Source: Sulfolobus sp. S-194 (GTDB lineage Archaea; Thermoproteota; Thermoprotei_A; Sulfolobales; Sulfolobaceae). Taken from it: a stretch of 64,000 nucleotides of DNA. Both the position numbers and the translations under genes were made by a program. The DNA is taken from positions 1,054,001 to 1,118,000 of the forward strand of contig NZ_CP035730.1 of NCBI RefSeq assembly GCF_012222305.1, given 5' to 3'. Below, piece after piece: positions 51,456-57,103 of the stretch; position 1 is the stretch's first letter, and each line of letters starts with the position of its first letter. A model generated the notes under the pieces. The model was given only the letters and a program-made list of their open reading frames with translations. It was not told where the DNA came from and searched no databases.

Positions 51456-52673
51456 TTATATGAAATATTTTATTAATTTTACAATCTCCTCATAATTACT
51501 TTTCTTACAGTTAATATTATTGAAGTTATTCTCATCGAGAACTGCAAAAAATCTACATCCTCCTATACACATAGGTAAGTAAGGACAATTATCACATCTT
51601 CCCTTCCAAATATATCTCGCTTTTATCCCAAGTAATTTATTGTTTATCCATTCTATGCTTCCATCTTCTTTTAATTTACCCTTAATATATAGAGGATTTC
51701 CAGTAAATGCCCAACAAGGATAAATATTCCCTAAAGGATCAACGACTATATCCTCATCAATATGTGCAACACAAATACCTAGCCTAAATACTTCTTGCGG
51801 AATTTCAAAGCCCAATTCTCTTGCAGTTTCCCAGAATTTTACTAACACTTTTCCTTCATTTTCTTTCGATAATGTGTTATGCCAATATTCATGCCTAAAC
51901 GTATTTTCATGCACTAAATGAGGATCTAATCTTACCTTTGTAATTCCTTCTTCCTTTAATATTTTCAAAAGTTTTCCTATCTCATCTAAGTTATTTACAT
52001 CTATGTTTATTCTCAAAACTACATTGGTTCTATCTTGTGCGTATTTTAAGTTTTCTACTATAATATCAAAAGACCCTCTACCATCAACGAAATATCTCCT
52101 TTTATCATGAACTTCCTTGGGACCATCTAGAGTAATTTGAACATGGGACAAGCCTAAATAAAGTAGTTTATCAAGCACATAAGGAGTTAGTAGTGATCCG
52201 TTAGTTACTACACTAAACGAATAATCTACTTCTCCTTTTAACTCCTTGGATATTTCTTCAATTCTCTTTAATTCTAAAAGTGGTTCACCGCCAAAATATG
52301 TTACTCTTACTTTTCTTCCGTTAGAATTCTTCTTTATATAGTTAATAAACCCCCTAACGACTTCATCTTTTACTCTATTTTTATTCCTAAATTTCTTCTG
52401 AAAACAATAAACGCAATCAAAATTACAATCATAGGTTAAGACAAGAGTAGGTTCTAAATACTTTTTATTTACAATAAACTTATCTATATCAAATTCTTGT
52501 TCAGAAAATCCTTCTTCAATTATTTCCTTCAATTCCTCAGGAATTTCTCCTTTAGAAAGTTTTCTCATCTGTTCATCGGTTACCTTAATTGCATAACCAG
52601 TTAGTGTATTAAAAATAATATTGTAATCATAAAGAAAAATATTGAATTTAGATAGCTTAGTTTTAGATTCCAT
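51456..52673 (-). CDS. Radical SAM/SPASM peptide-maturase-like enzyme
   Basis: 405 residues. N-terminal domain with [17 protein letters not shown], common in peptide-modifying radical SAM enzymes. Radical SAM core: CNFDCVYC (Cys83, 87, 90), [22 protein letters not shown]. The C-terminal SPASM domain has its full set: [30 protein letters not shown], and a last INC, enough for two auxiliary 4Fe-4S clusters. Such enzymes form thioether or C-C crosslinks, epimers or other changes in a peptide or protein substrate. The gene starts four bases after the stop of a 24-residue peptide gene, its probable substrate. Confidence 0.9.
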
Positions 52674-52677
52674 CTTT

Positions 52678-52752
52678 TTACTCGCCCCATGAAGGAGAGT
52701 AGTTACACCTACCCATTTTTCTTTCTATTTTTACAACTTTTACGGCCTTCAT
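52678..52752 (-). CDS. Candidate precursor peptide for the adjacent radical SAM enzyme
   Basis: 24 residues. The N-terminal half is basic-hydrophobic ([13 protein letters not shown]), leader-like; the C-terminal part is [11 protein letters not shown], with single Cys and Trp, a Tyr and two Ser, core-like. The TAA is followed by AAAG and then the ATG of the radical SAM gene. A TATA-like CTTAATAA is centred about 27 bases upstream, so it would be the first, leaderless gene of the operon. The position, spacing and composition are seen; that it is translated and modified is inference. It could also be an uORF-like leader. Confidence 0.6.
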
Positions 52753-52773
52753 ATGCGAAATTTCATATACCGA

Positions 52774-52785
52774 GTTATTAAGATT
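52774..52785 (-). promoter_or_regulatory. TATA box before the peptide/radical SAM operon
   Basis: Minus-strand AATCTTAATAAC, centred about 27 bases before the peptide ATG at 52752. It supports transcription starting at the small peptide gene rather than at the radical SAM gene. Confidence 0.45.
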
Positions 52786-54349: not shown

Positions 54350-55942
54350 ATCCCGTATGATGTAGTTTTAACTTCTGATAGAGGTACATTCACAGATTAT
54401 GGTGGAATTGCACCATTAGGTTATGTAGCTTGTTTACCATATCGTCTAGTTCCACGAATTTTTATGGACAAAATATTTACCCCACCAGAAAAAGTTGATA
54501 AGGATGGAAGAGCAATATTTGCACCTTATTCCTTAAGAAAAGTTGAGGCTGTATTGATTTCTCATGGTTTTAATGTAATAGTTACTCCACCAGAAAAGTT
54601 AGAGAAGGTCGTCAGTAAGGGGATTAAAGTTCTAGGTATTAATACTCACGATCCTCTTGGAATCGAACCAGTTAGTATGAAATTAAGTATAATTTTTGGT
54701 GGAGGTAAAACTTGGACCTCAAAATTTTTTGAGGAATTAGGTGAAAAAGTAAAGAAAATAAAAAGCAAATATGATATAAAAGTCGTAGTTGGCGGTGCTG
54801 GTGCTTGGCAATTAGAAAAAGAACCTCCAGAGTGGATTGATGTAATATTTATCGATCATGAAGAAATTGATTTCCCAGAAATAGTTAAAAAGTTGGAAGA
54901 AGGTGAAAAAGTACCTAGAGTAGTGAAAGCCAGATACCCTAAAAAAATAAGCGAAATCCCGACAATTATAAATCCAGCTAGAGGTGGAGAAGTTCAAATT
55001 ACCAGAGGCTGCCCTAGAGGTTGCTGGTTCTGCTCTATTACTCCAGACACTTTTATCTCGTTCCCAATTGATTATGTAATGAAAGAAGTAGAAGTTAATA
55101 TGAAGGCCGGGATTAAAGATGTTAGTCTAATCACAGACGATATGATGCTTTACGGGACTAAAAGTTTAAGAGAAGTAAATCATGATGCTATTATAAGATT
55201 ATATAAGGAGTTAAAGAAAGCTGGAGTAGATTATATTAACTTTGCTCATATATCAGCAGCTCCAGTGAAACTTAGTCGTAGAACTGTTAAAGAAATGAGT
55301 GAGATTGCAGGGTGGAATGAAGAAAAGGCTGTATCTCCAGTTGTTGGATTAGAGACAGGCAGCGAGAAAATATTTAATAAGTACATGAAAATGAAGGCTT
55401 TTCCGTGGGGATATAATAATTGGAAAGACCTAATTGTTGAAGCTACAGCAATAATGAATGACAATTATATTTACCCTTGTTATACAATGACTATTGGCTA
55501 TCCAGATGAGACTGATGAAGATGTAGAACAATCAATAAAGTTAGTTGAATATATAATAGATCATAAGCCAGTTGCTTGGATTTTCCCATTGCCAGTAATC
55601 CCAATGGGGACTTCAAAAATTAGGGATAATCCTTTGCCAGCAATAGAGAGACTTCCATCTAGATATTGGGATTTACTTTATATAACATGGAAATATGATC
55701 TCTAAATAACTAGAAGATTAGCAAGAACAATTACTGCAACTAGTAAAAATAAAGTAGTTAGAAGTTTAGCGATGTATTTAATCGATAAGGTATTTAATAA
55801 TGTTGAATGGTACTTTCAACAACTTAAAGAAAGTGAAGGGAAATCAGCACTCTCTTATAAAGATTTGAATCTTAATACAATTTATGGAGTAATATGGGCC
55901 ATAACCCAACTATTTAAGTTAGCTTTTTCTTCTTCTGGTTGA
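54350..55942 (+). pseudogene. B12-binding-type radical SAM protein, lacking a standard start and with an in-frame TAA
   Basis: The radical SAM core (ITRGCPRGCWFCSI, Cx3Cx2C) follows a Rossmann-like B12-type domain (GVKVLGINTHDPLGIEP-like, VVVGGAGAWQLEKEP). Protein-like sequence continues 38 codons upstream of the first ATG (54464): VVLTSDRGTFTDYGGIAPLG then YVACLPYRLVP. The only start there is ATC at 54350, six bases after GGTGAT. After a TAA at 55703-55705 the same frame stays open 78 codons (LAMYLIDKVFNNVEWYFQQL) to 55942. Either a decayed gene, sequence errors, or a still-active protein from 54464-55705. Homologues are modifying enzymes of unknown substrate. Confidence 0.7.
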
Positions 55943-55952
55943 ATTGATTAAT

Positions 55953-56573
55953 ATGCAAATAAAAGAAATACAATTACGATTTGTGAAAGCGTTTTTGATA
56001 GAGAATGATAAAGGAAATATTTTAATTGATACTGGCACGCCAGGTAGTGGGAAAATCTTGAAAAATTACTTAAAAGATGTTAAGTACGTTATATTTACAC
56101 ATTCTCATATAGATCATATTGGTGGAGCTAGTGAGATTAGAGGATCGACTAACGCAGAATTTTGTATTCATGATAAGGGGAAGGAATATTTGGAGAAAGG
56201 GTTAATAAGAAAGCCCGTTGTACACTCTCTCGGTCTAAAAATTGTTTTCCCTCTTTTCTCACTCTTCTCTAGAGGATTAAAACCAACTAAAGTTGATTGT
56301 ACTCTTAAAGATGAGGAGGAAATTGTAAATGGAGTAAGAATACTTTACACCCCTGGACATACTGATGATTCTATTTCAATTTATTTGGAACCAATAAATT
56401 CAGTTATTGTAGGTGATATGTTACAAGGAAGAGGTAATTATTTAACTTATCCTCAAATTTATGAAAATATGGAAGAAATGATAAAAAGTGTACAAAAAGT
56501 ATTAGATCTAAAGCCAAGTTTTATTTATGTTAGCCATGGCAAAAGTATGAGCACTAATTACGTGAAAATTTAG
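55953..56573 (+). CDS. Metallo-beta-lactamase-fold hydrolase
   Basis: About 206 residues. Metal site [10 protein letters not shown] (HxHxDH), then [15 protein letters not shown] and YVSHGK supply the other ligands. It belongs to the broad glyoxalase II-like group; the substrate is unknown. I chose the ATG at 55953; a TTG at 55944 is in frame, right after the broken radical SAM frame ends. The stop overlaps the convergent DoxD-like gene by four bases. Confidence 0.9.
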
Positions 56574-57103
56574 ACAAACAAAAGGTAAAATATTACACAT
56601 GCATATAAGATACTACCCGCAATGAACAATATTTTCGCATTTTCTACTTGCCTAAACTTTCTCCTGATTAGAGCATCTAATCCAAAGTCTTGTGAACCTT
56701 TGTAGATAAGATAAAGTTCTATAATCATCATAAGTAAGTTAATCCCGTATTCTTCCGTATCTACCCAATATGCTGAGAGGAAATAGATTAAGTTGGTATA
56801 AAATGCCACTGTGTTGGTAAATCTAGTCATTAGACCCAGAAGATTTAATATTCCAAACGATATTTCCCCAATCATTACTAGTTCTCCAACTAATAACACA
56901 TGGGGCAACACTACATATTCTAAAAATGGTTTCATAATAGGGCCTTGCATCAAAACTTCTATAGTTATTCCCACATAACTAGTAGAGCTAGGATTTAGAT
57001 AACCAGGATTAAGAAGTTTTTCAAATACACCAGCATAAATCCAGATAGTTGCTAAAGCTAATCTCATAAAATTTGGCCAAAATTCAATCTTTAATTGGCT
57101 CAT
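56570..57103 (-). CDS. DoxD-like membrane protein
   Basis: 177 residues, four membrane helices. [25 protein letters not shown] and [24 protein letters not shown] match the DoxD family, the small membrane subunit of thiosulfate:quinone oxidoreductase in Acidianus (DoxDA) and relatives. No DoxA-like gene is adjacent. The ATG overlaps the stop of the preceding membrane gene (ATGA). Last of a three-gene operon with that gene and the beta-propeller. Role in sulfur oxidation is inference. Confidence 0.8.

Follow-up and report, generated by a model that had tools for sequence, protein, structure and literature searches.

A 24-codon gene of Sulfolobus sp. S-194 and the radical SAM/SPASM enzyme encoded directly behind it probably constitute the precursor and maturase of a ribosomally made, radical-SAM-modified peptide, on which further partners would act later and whose product is likelier a cofactor or carrier than an antimicrobial. 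Within the 64,000-nucleotide stretch of DNA that we analyzed (the window), both genes lie on the minus strand. The peptide gene occupies 52678 to 52752, stop codon included, and orthologous open reading frames (ORFs) occur in 14 further Sulfolobaceae and four Thermoplasmata genomes. The gene for the putative 405-residue peptide maturase occupies 51456 to 52673, and its assignment draws on Pfam, sub-cutoff NCBIfam scores, invariant residues, and an AlphaFold2 model compared by Foldseek. The peptide's stop codon (52680 to 52678) is followed by a 4-base gap (52677 to 52674) and then by the enzyme's ATG at 52673, confirming the original prediction of a 24-codon minus-strand ORF whose stop stands four bases ahead of a radical SAM start codon. 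The comparisons below also support its reading of the locus as a modified-peptide (RiPP) system; it had missed the recurrent U32-family and metallo-β-lactamase-fold (MBL) partners, as well as the core invariance that points to a cofactor-like product. An A+T-rich, TATA-like stretch at 52775 to 52785 (minus strand), about 24 to 33 bases before the peptide ATG, was recognized by consensus resemblance only. Averaged over 19 orthologous loci, A+T content peaks between about −33 and −27 relative to this ATG; this would suit a leaderless transcript driven from a TATA box, but the evidence is weak.

In the window, the 14 further Sulfolobaceae, and the four Thermoplasmata genomes, alignments and pattern searches found that the peptide's C terminus always reads R-C-[NG]-Y-S-P-S-W-G-[EQDN]-stop (residues 15 to 24; codons at 52681 to 52710, minus strand), and that the N-terminal half is variable, centering on the pattern K-x-[VLI]-x-[KRV]-[IVL]-[EDQ]-R-[KR]. 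This invariant part includes the C-Y-S-P-S-W segment that had been proposed as the modified core, which fits such a role. Peptides are 24 to 28 residues long and have one cysteine common to all, with two in the Thermoplasmata. It had been proposed to look for the small ORF upstream of orthologous enzymes and for coding selection on it. We found the ORF kept before every intact orthologue, that is, just upstream of all 14 others in Sulfolobaceae and of the enzyme in the four Thermoplasmata genomes, a count that leaves out G021 (enzyme truncated by the contig end) and G015 (a deletion, described below). Across these loci, the ORF has 24 to 28 codons, and its end lies −1 to 12 bases from the enzyme start. 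In codon comparison, pN/pS was 0.175 over the core codons and 0.33 over the leader; reading the core in the other two frames gave 1.9 and 2.3. Moreover, the serine before the tryptophan is encoded by a TCN codon in one clade and by AGY in another, a change for which one synonymous step is insufficient. Together, these comparisons indicate that the small reading frame is under coding selection. The same data bear on whether the ORF could instead be a regulatory leader peptide (uORF) governing translation of the enzyme: its proximity and stop-start coupling would suit that role, but selection on the C-terminal amino acids, including the switch of serine codon family, speaks against it, and its position before an enzyme of peptide-maturase type would be left unexplained. 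We consider this the least probable of the explanations weighed here.

The enzyme contains a radical SAM domain (PF04055, 75 bits in Pfam) with a Cx3Cx2C motif (C83, C87, C90), FGGEP at residues 127 to 131, and seven SPASM cysteines (C301-x18-C320...C360-x2-C363-x5-C369-x3-C373-x15-C389). All of these motifs, which had been read correctly from the window, are invariant in 18 orthologues. No NCBIfam model scores above its cutoff. The best sub-cutoff models describe CefB, the geopeptide maturase, TIGR04463, and the PapB, Clo7bot, and SCIFF maturases; scores against cutoffs are 237/600 bits for CefB (NF038107), 233/400 for the geopeptide maturase (TIGR04280), 151/340 for PapB (NF047865), and 103/425 for SCIFF (TIGR03974). 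CefB and the geopeptide maturase are thus the top-scoring known models and match over nearly the full length, with both cutoffs unmet. An AlphaFold2 model of the enzyme is modest in confidence overall (pLDDT 71.5, pTM 0.77) and poor at the N terminus and across the SPASM region. Sequence-profile comparison and Foldseek both give CteB (5wgg/5why) as the best solved relative. The modeled N terminus has three strands and three helices, and the region of about residues 1 to 70 may, at low confidence, be RRE-like.

By these measures, the enzyme stands closest to Cys-thioether maturases (CefB, geopeptide, PapB, and SCIFF/CteB). CteB and PapB form thioethers (PMC8172795), and because the nearest families and fold are those of thioether maturases, a Cys thioether in the peptide core would be the likeliest reaction; candidate acceptors are Tyr18, Ser19, Ser21, Trp22, and the acidic or amide last residue. 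Because the NCBIfam cutoffs are unmet, however, the type of crosslink is a guess from sub-cutoff similarity. SCIFF/CteB and PapB share with the archaeal system the order of radical SAM domain and seven-Cys SPASM domain (behind an RRE-like region that is tentative in the archaeal enzyme), the best PDB match, and a Cys-bearing peptide as substrate or candidate substrate. Nevertheless, the enzyme is only 22% identical to CteB, the SCIFF precursor has about six cysteines in 45 residues where the archaeal peptides share one, and the Cys-x3-Asp motif that marks a PapB-type precursor occurs in none of the precursors compared.

Relatives of the enzyme were found at 58 to 93% identity in 16 other Sulfolobaceae genomes and at about 49 to 57% identity in Thermoplasmata, in a genome set with one genome per species. 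The core codon pattern matches 15 of the 229 genomes of the class, once each and always at the maturase locus; this is far more than expected by chance, and a reversed control pattern had zero matches in the same 229 genomes. Outside Sulfolobaceae, no match was seen in 398 genomes drawn across the phylum. In a sample of 400 Thermoplasmata genomes, the core pattern occurs in four, all at the maturase, and the reversed control matches two. Whether the core carries N or G tracks the phylogeny of the enzyme and cuts across genus boundaries: G030 (g5) has the N type, whereas its congeners G016, G024, and G028 have the G type and group with other relatives. This distribution indicates that peptide and enzyme travel jointly and have been transferred between thermoacidophilic archaea. 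They are also lost jointly. In G015, one ∼0.9-kb deletion extends from the Cys codon of the core to about residue 286 of the enzyme, whereas G020 retains just 47 codons of the enzyme, surrounded by insertion sequences, and lacks the core pattern. Nitrospirae relatives, at about 30% identity, have CC[AI]GA-type candidate peptides, not the archaeal core, and we rejected them as orthologues. One Nitrospirae metagenome-assembled genome (MAG) has a small ORF (L044:4765-4866, plus strand; MKNRIVVLKKGVEKKQIVEGLCCIGAYVPYLWG) upstream of a 27%-identical maturase; its C..Y.P..WG recalls the archaeal core, and its ending, CCIGAYVPYLWG, is too little to call the peptide homologous.

We found a U32-family protein and an MBL-fold protein in all 16 Sulfolobaceae genomes with an intact or contig-cut maturase, compared to 9 (U32) and 7 (MBL) of the remaining 15 (Fisher P = 0.007 for U32 and 0.0008 for MBL, not corrected for phylogeny). 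The two genes adjoin the enzyme or one another. In five g10 genomes and at all four Thermoplasmata loci, where peptide, maturase, U32, and MBL are clustered, U32 is divergently adjacent to the peptide and is followed by MBL; in G016, G024, and G028, MBL lies 3′ of the maturase and U32 elsewhere, and in G030, MBL is divergent and lies directly 5′ of the peptide gene. MBL adjoins U32 in most genomes, including that of the window, whose U32-MBL operon lies some 0.78 Mb away (C1:1882101-1883898). This recurrent partnership with the precursor-maturase pair is new here. In G002, which lacks an intact maturase, MBL is broken. U32 occurs without maturase or MBL in G022 and G026, suggesting a possible separate role. 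The U32 partner matches PF01136 above cutoff, and its AlphaFold2 model (pLDDT 91) has 5d88 as its best Foldseek match. Characterized U32 oxidases are O2-independent Fe-S hydroxylases with the motif Cx6Cx15Cx3C (PMC11574389). The partner's invariant cysteines (C182, C186, C217, C329, C334, C337, and C340; Cx3Cx30C and Cx4Cx2Cx2C) do not match this motif, and since their spacing is unlike that of the characterized oxidases, hydroxylation is a lead, short of a finding. The MBL partner is a generic Lactamase_B member with intact metal-binding motifs.

Other neighbors proved less constant. A flavoprotein and a methyltransferase, which the original prediction had thought might belong, are adjacent only in the window and in its closest relative, the 93%-identical G003, and we dropped them as parts of the system. 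Behind U32-MBL in several genera are two radical SAM proteins, TIGR04053/AhbD-like and NirJ1/AhbC-like, which are present both with and without the maturase, and no such pair stands beside U32-MBL in the window's genus; this AhbC/AhbD/NirJ-related pair is accessory at best. The resulting four-gene cassette (for example, L126:4937-8904 on the minus strand, L137:6883-10831, L138:9126-12951, and L234:9534-13355) is distinct from the other AhbC/AhbD-like pair of the same genomes. A winged-helix-like "MCDY" protein beside several loci was rejected as a component, being multicopy in almost all Sulfolobaceae, and is probably a regulator. The wider family, whose members start with MC(D/Y) and often adjoin the maturase or U32 (L124:8667-9174, L126:10385-10924, and others), has a Cx2Cx5C motif and a winged-helix-like stretch, has no Pfam or NCBIfam match, and is perhaps a Fe-S or Zn regulator.

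Precursors of this enzyme class might also yield a conventional exported natural product of thermoacidophiles, since sactipeptide and ranthipeptide antimicrobials have maturases of the same class, and the patchy distribution with horizontal transfer would be in keeping with that. Antimicrobial cores diversify, however, whereas this core is nearly invariant across two archaeal phyla, and the neighborhoods, examined to about 10 kb from the pair, show no recurring transporter, protease-exporter, or immunity gene. We regard an exported antimicrobial as improbable; the invariance of the core and the absence of a recurrent transporter favor a cofactor-like product over a variable antimicrobial.

Known peptide-derived cofactors provide closer parallels. 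The mycofactocin system (MftA/MftC) likewise has a short precursor with an invariant C terminus adjoining a radical SAM/SPASM maturase, conservation in protein rather than DNA, a wide yet patchy spread, and no transporter or immunity gene (PMC3023750). The differences are that MftA ends in CGVY, unlike the archaeal core; that the archaeal partners are U32 and MBL, not proteins of the mycofactocin cluster; and that the archaeal maturase scores 59 bits against mycofact_rSAM (TIGR03962), far under the cutoff of 265. PQQ biosynthesis (PqqA, PqqD, PqqE, and PqqB) similarly combines a precursor of about 23 amino acids with a radical SAM/SPASM enzyme, and includes an RRE and an MBL-fold partner. Unlike PqqA, the archaeal peptide lacks a Glu-x3-Tyr motif and has an unrelated core, the archaeal MBL is a generic family member, and no PqqC was seen with the archaeal pair.

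We infer the peptide's role as substrate, the crosslink type, the order of steps, and the cofactor role in the following pathway. The 24-residue peptide would be translated just ahead of its maturase, and its basic N-terminal half (KxVxKIERK) would be bound by the RRE-like domain predicted at the enzyme's N terminus. Oxidation of the C-terminal RC[NG]YSPSWG[EQDN] by the radical SAM core and SPASM clusters would follow; the likeliest reaction removes two electrons (−2 Da) and forms a thioether from the shared cysteine to a downstream residue. The U32 protein, perhaps an O2-independent hydroxylase, and the MBL protein, whose genes adjoin the pair in some genomes and are remote from it in others, may act later in further oxidation or trimming. 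The product would be an intracellular cofactor or electron carrier, like PQQ and mycofactocin, although no client enzyme for it was found.

A special case of this pathway, which we consider possible but doubtful, is a quinone-type cofactor derived from Cys-Trp (or Tyr), like cysteine tryptophylquinone or PQQ. The radical enzyme would make the crosslink, and U32 (by O2-independent hydroxylation), MBL, or both would oxygenate the aromatic ring. It is equally tentative that the crosslinked core, oxygenated by U32 without O2, would serve as a redox cofactor in the form of a Cys-Trp or Cys-Tyr quinone-like carrier. The closest known parallel is QhpC/QhpD/QhpG, in which a radical SAM enzyme modifies a small polypeptide: QhpC is an 8.8-kDa subunit with three Cys-Asp/Glu thioethers, and its Cys37 and Trp43, which form cysteine tryptophylquinone, are six residues apart (PMC7876137), as are Cys16 and Trp22 of the archaeal core. 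QhpD-type maturases (TIGR03906) are also among the weak relatives of the archaeal enzyme, and the partners are of MBL fold and Fe-S hydroxylase-like. Spacing alone is weak evidence, however, and it is the only feature that the cysteine tryptophylquinone peptide shares with the archaeal peptide. Moreover, the radical enzyme forms the other thioethers of QhpC, not the Cys-Trp bond; the U32 cysteines depart from the characterized oxidase motif; and the client dehydrogenase is not known, with neither an amine dehydrogenase nor QhpG seen beside the archaeal pair.

The peptide might instead be a small stable subunit, or the cofactor-bearing part, of another enzyme. An operon encoding a sulfur/thiosulfate-reductase-like Mo-bisPGD complex (TAT-exported catalytic subunit, Fe-S protein, NrfD, polyferredoxin, and delta-type chaperone; L121:1262-8391, L230:11169-18329, and L131:795-4686) adjoins the peptide-maturase pair in G019 and U32-MBL in G001; in G016 and G028, 4 to 8 kb separate it from the maturase gene. 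This adjacency extends to three genera, and among solved structures the catalytic subunit matches thiosulfate reductase (2vpw) best. Against such a role, the complex was found in only 7 of the 16 genomes that retain an intact maturase and in 3 of the 15 that do not (one-sided P = 0.15), and is absent from all g10 genomes with the maturase. Subunit status is very improbable, and the operon was rejected as sole client because the co-occurrence is not significant. We also rejected the peptide as the origin of the caldariellaquinone head group: this quinone is regarded as general in the order, whereas the pair is missing from several Sulfolobaceae genomes that are nearly complete.

If the doubtful quinone-type reading is right, it would add to PQQ and mycofactocin a further redox cofactor derived from a ribosomal peptide, the first known mainly from archaea, and this quinone-like carrier would serve the metabolism of Sulfolobaceae and Thermoplasmata. 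Peptide-derived cofactors are very rare, and their precursor genes are so short that annotation easily overlooks them. Our search of the open-licence literature, which is incomplete, found neither the core motif nor a Sulfolobales system of this kind described. Action of U32 on the peptide would extend to peptides a family of anaerobic hydroxylases whose substrates known to date are quinones and RNA. An invariant core that two archaeal phyla share, its own maturase, and two recurring partners make the proposal directly testable, and some members of the family can be manipulated genetically.

Several other genes surround the pair in the window. A PaREP1 family protein (PF05942; 50738 to 51253, plus strand) converges on the 3′ end of the maturase gene, and DoxD (PF04173), the small subunit of thiosulfate:quinone oxidoreductase, is encoded at 56570 to 57103 (minus strand). 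A second radical SAM protein (PF04055; 413 amino acids, with a GCPRGCWFCS motif) is encoded at 54464 to 55705 (plus strand), divergently upstream of the flavoprotein; in G006 and G015, relatives of this protein lie ∼0.8 kb upstream of the maturase region.
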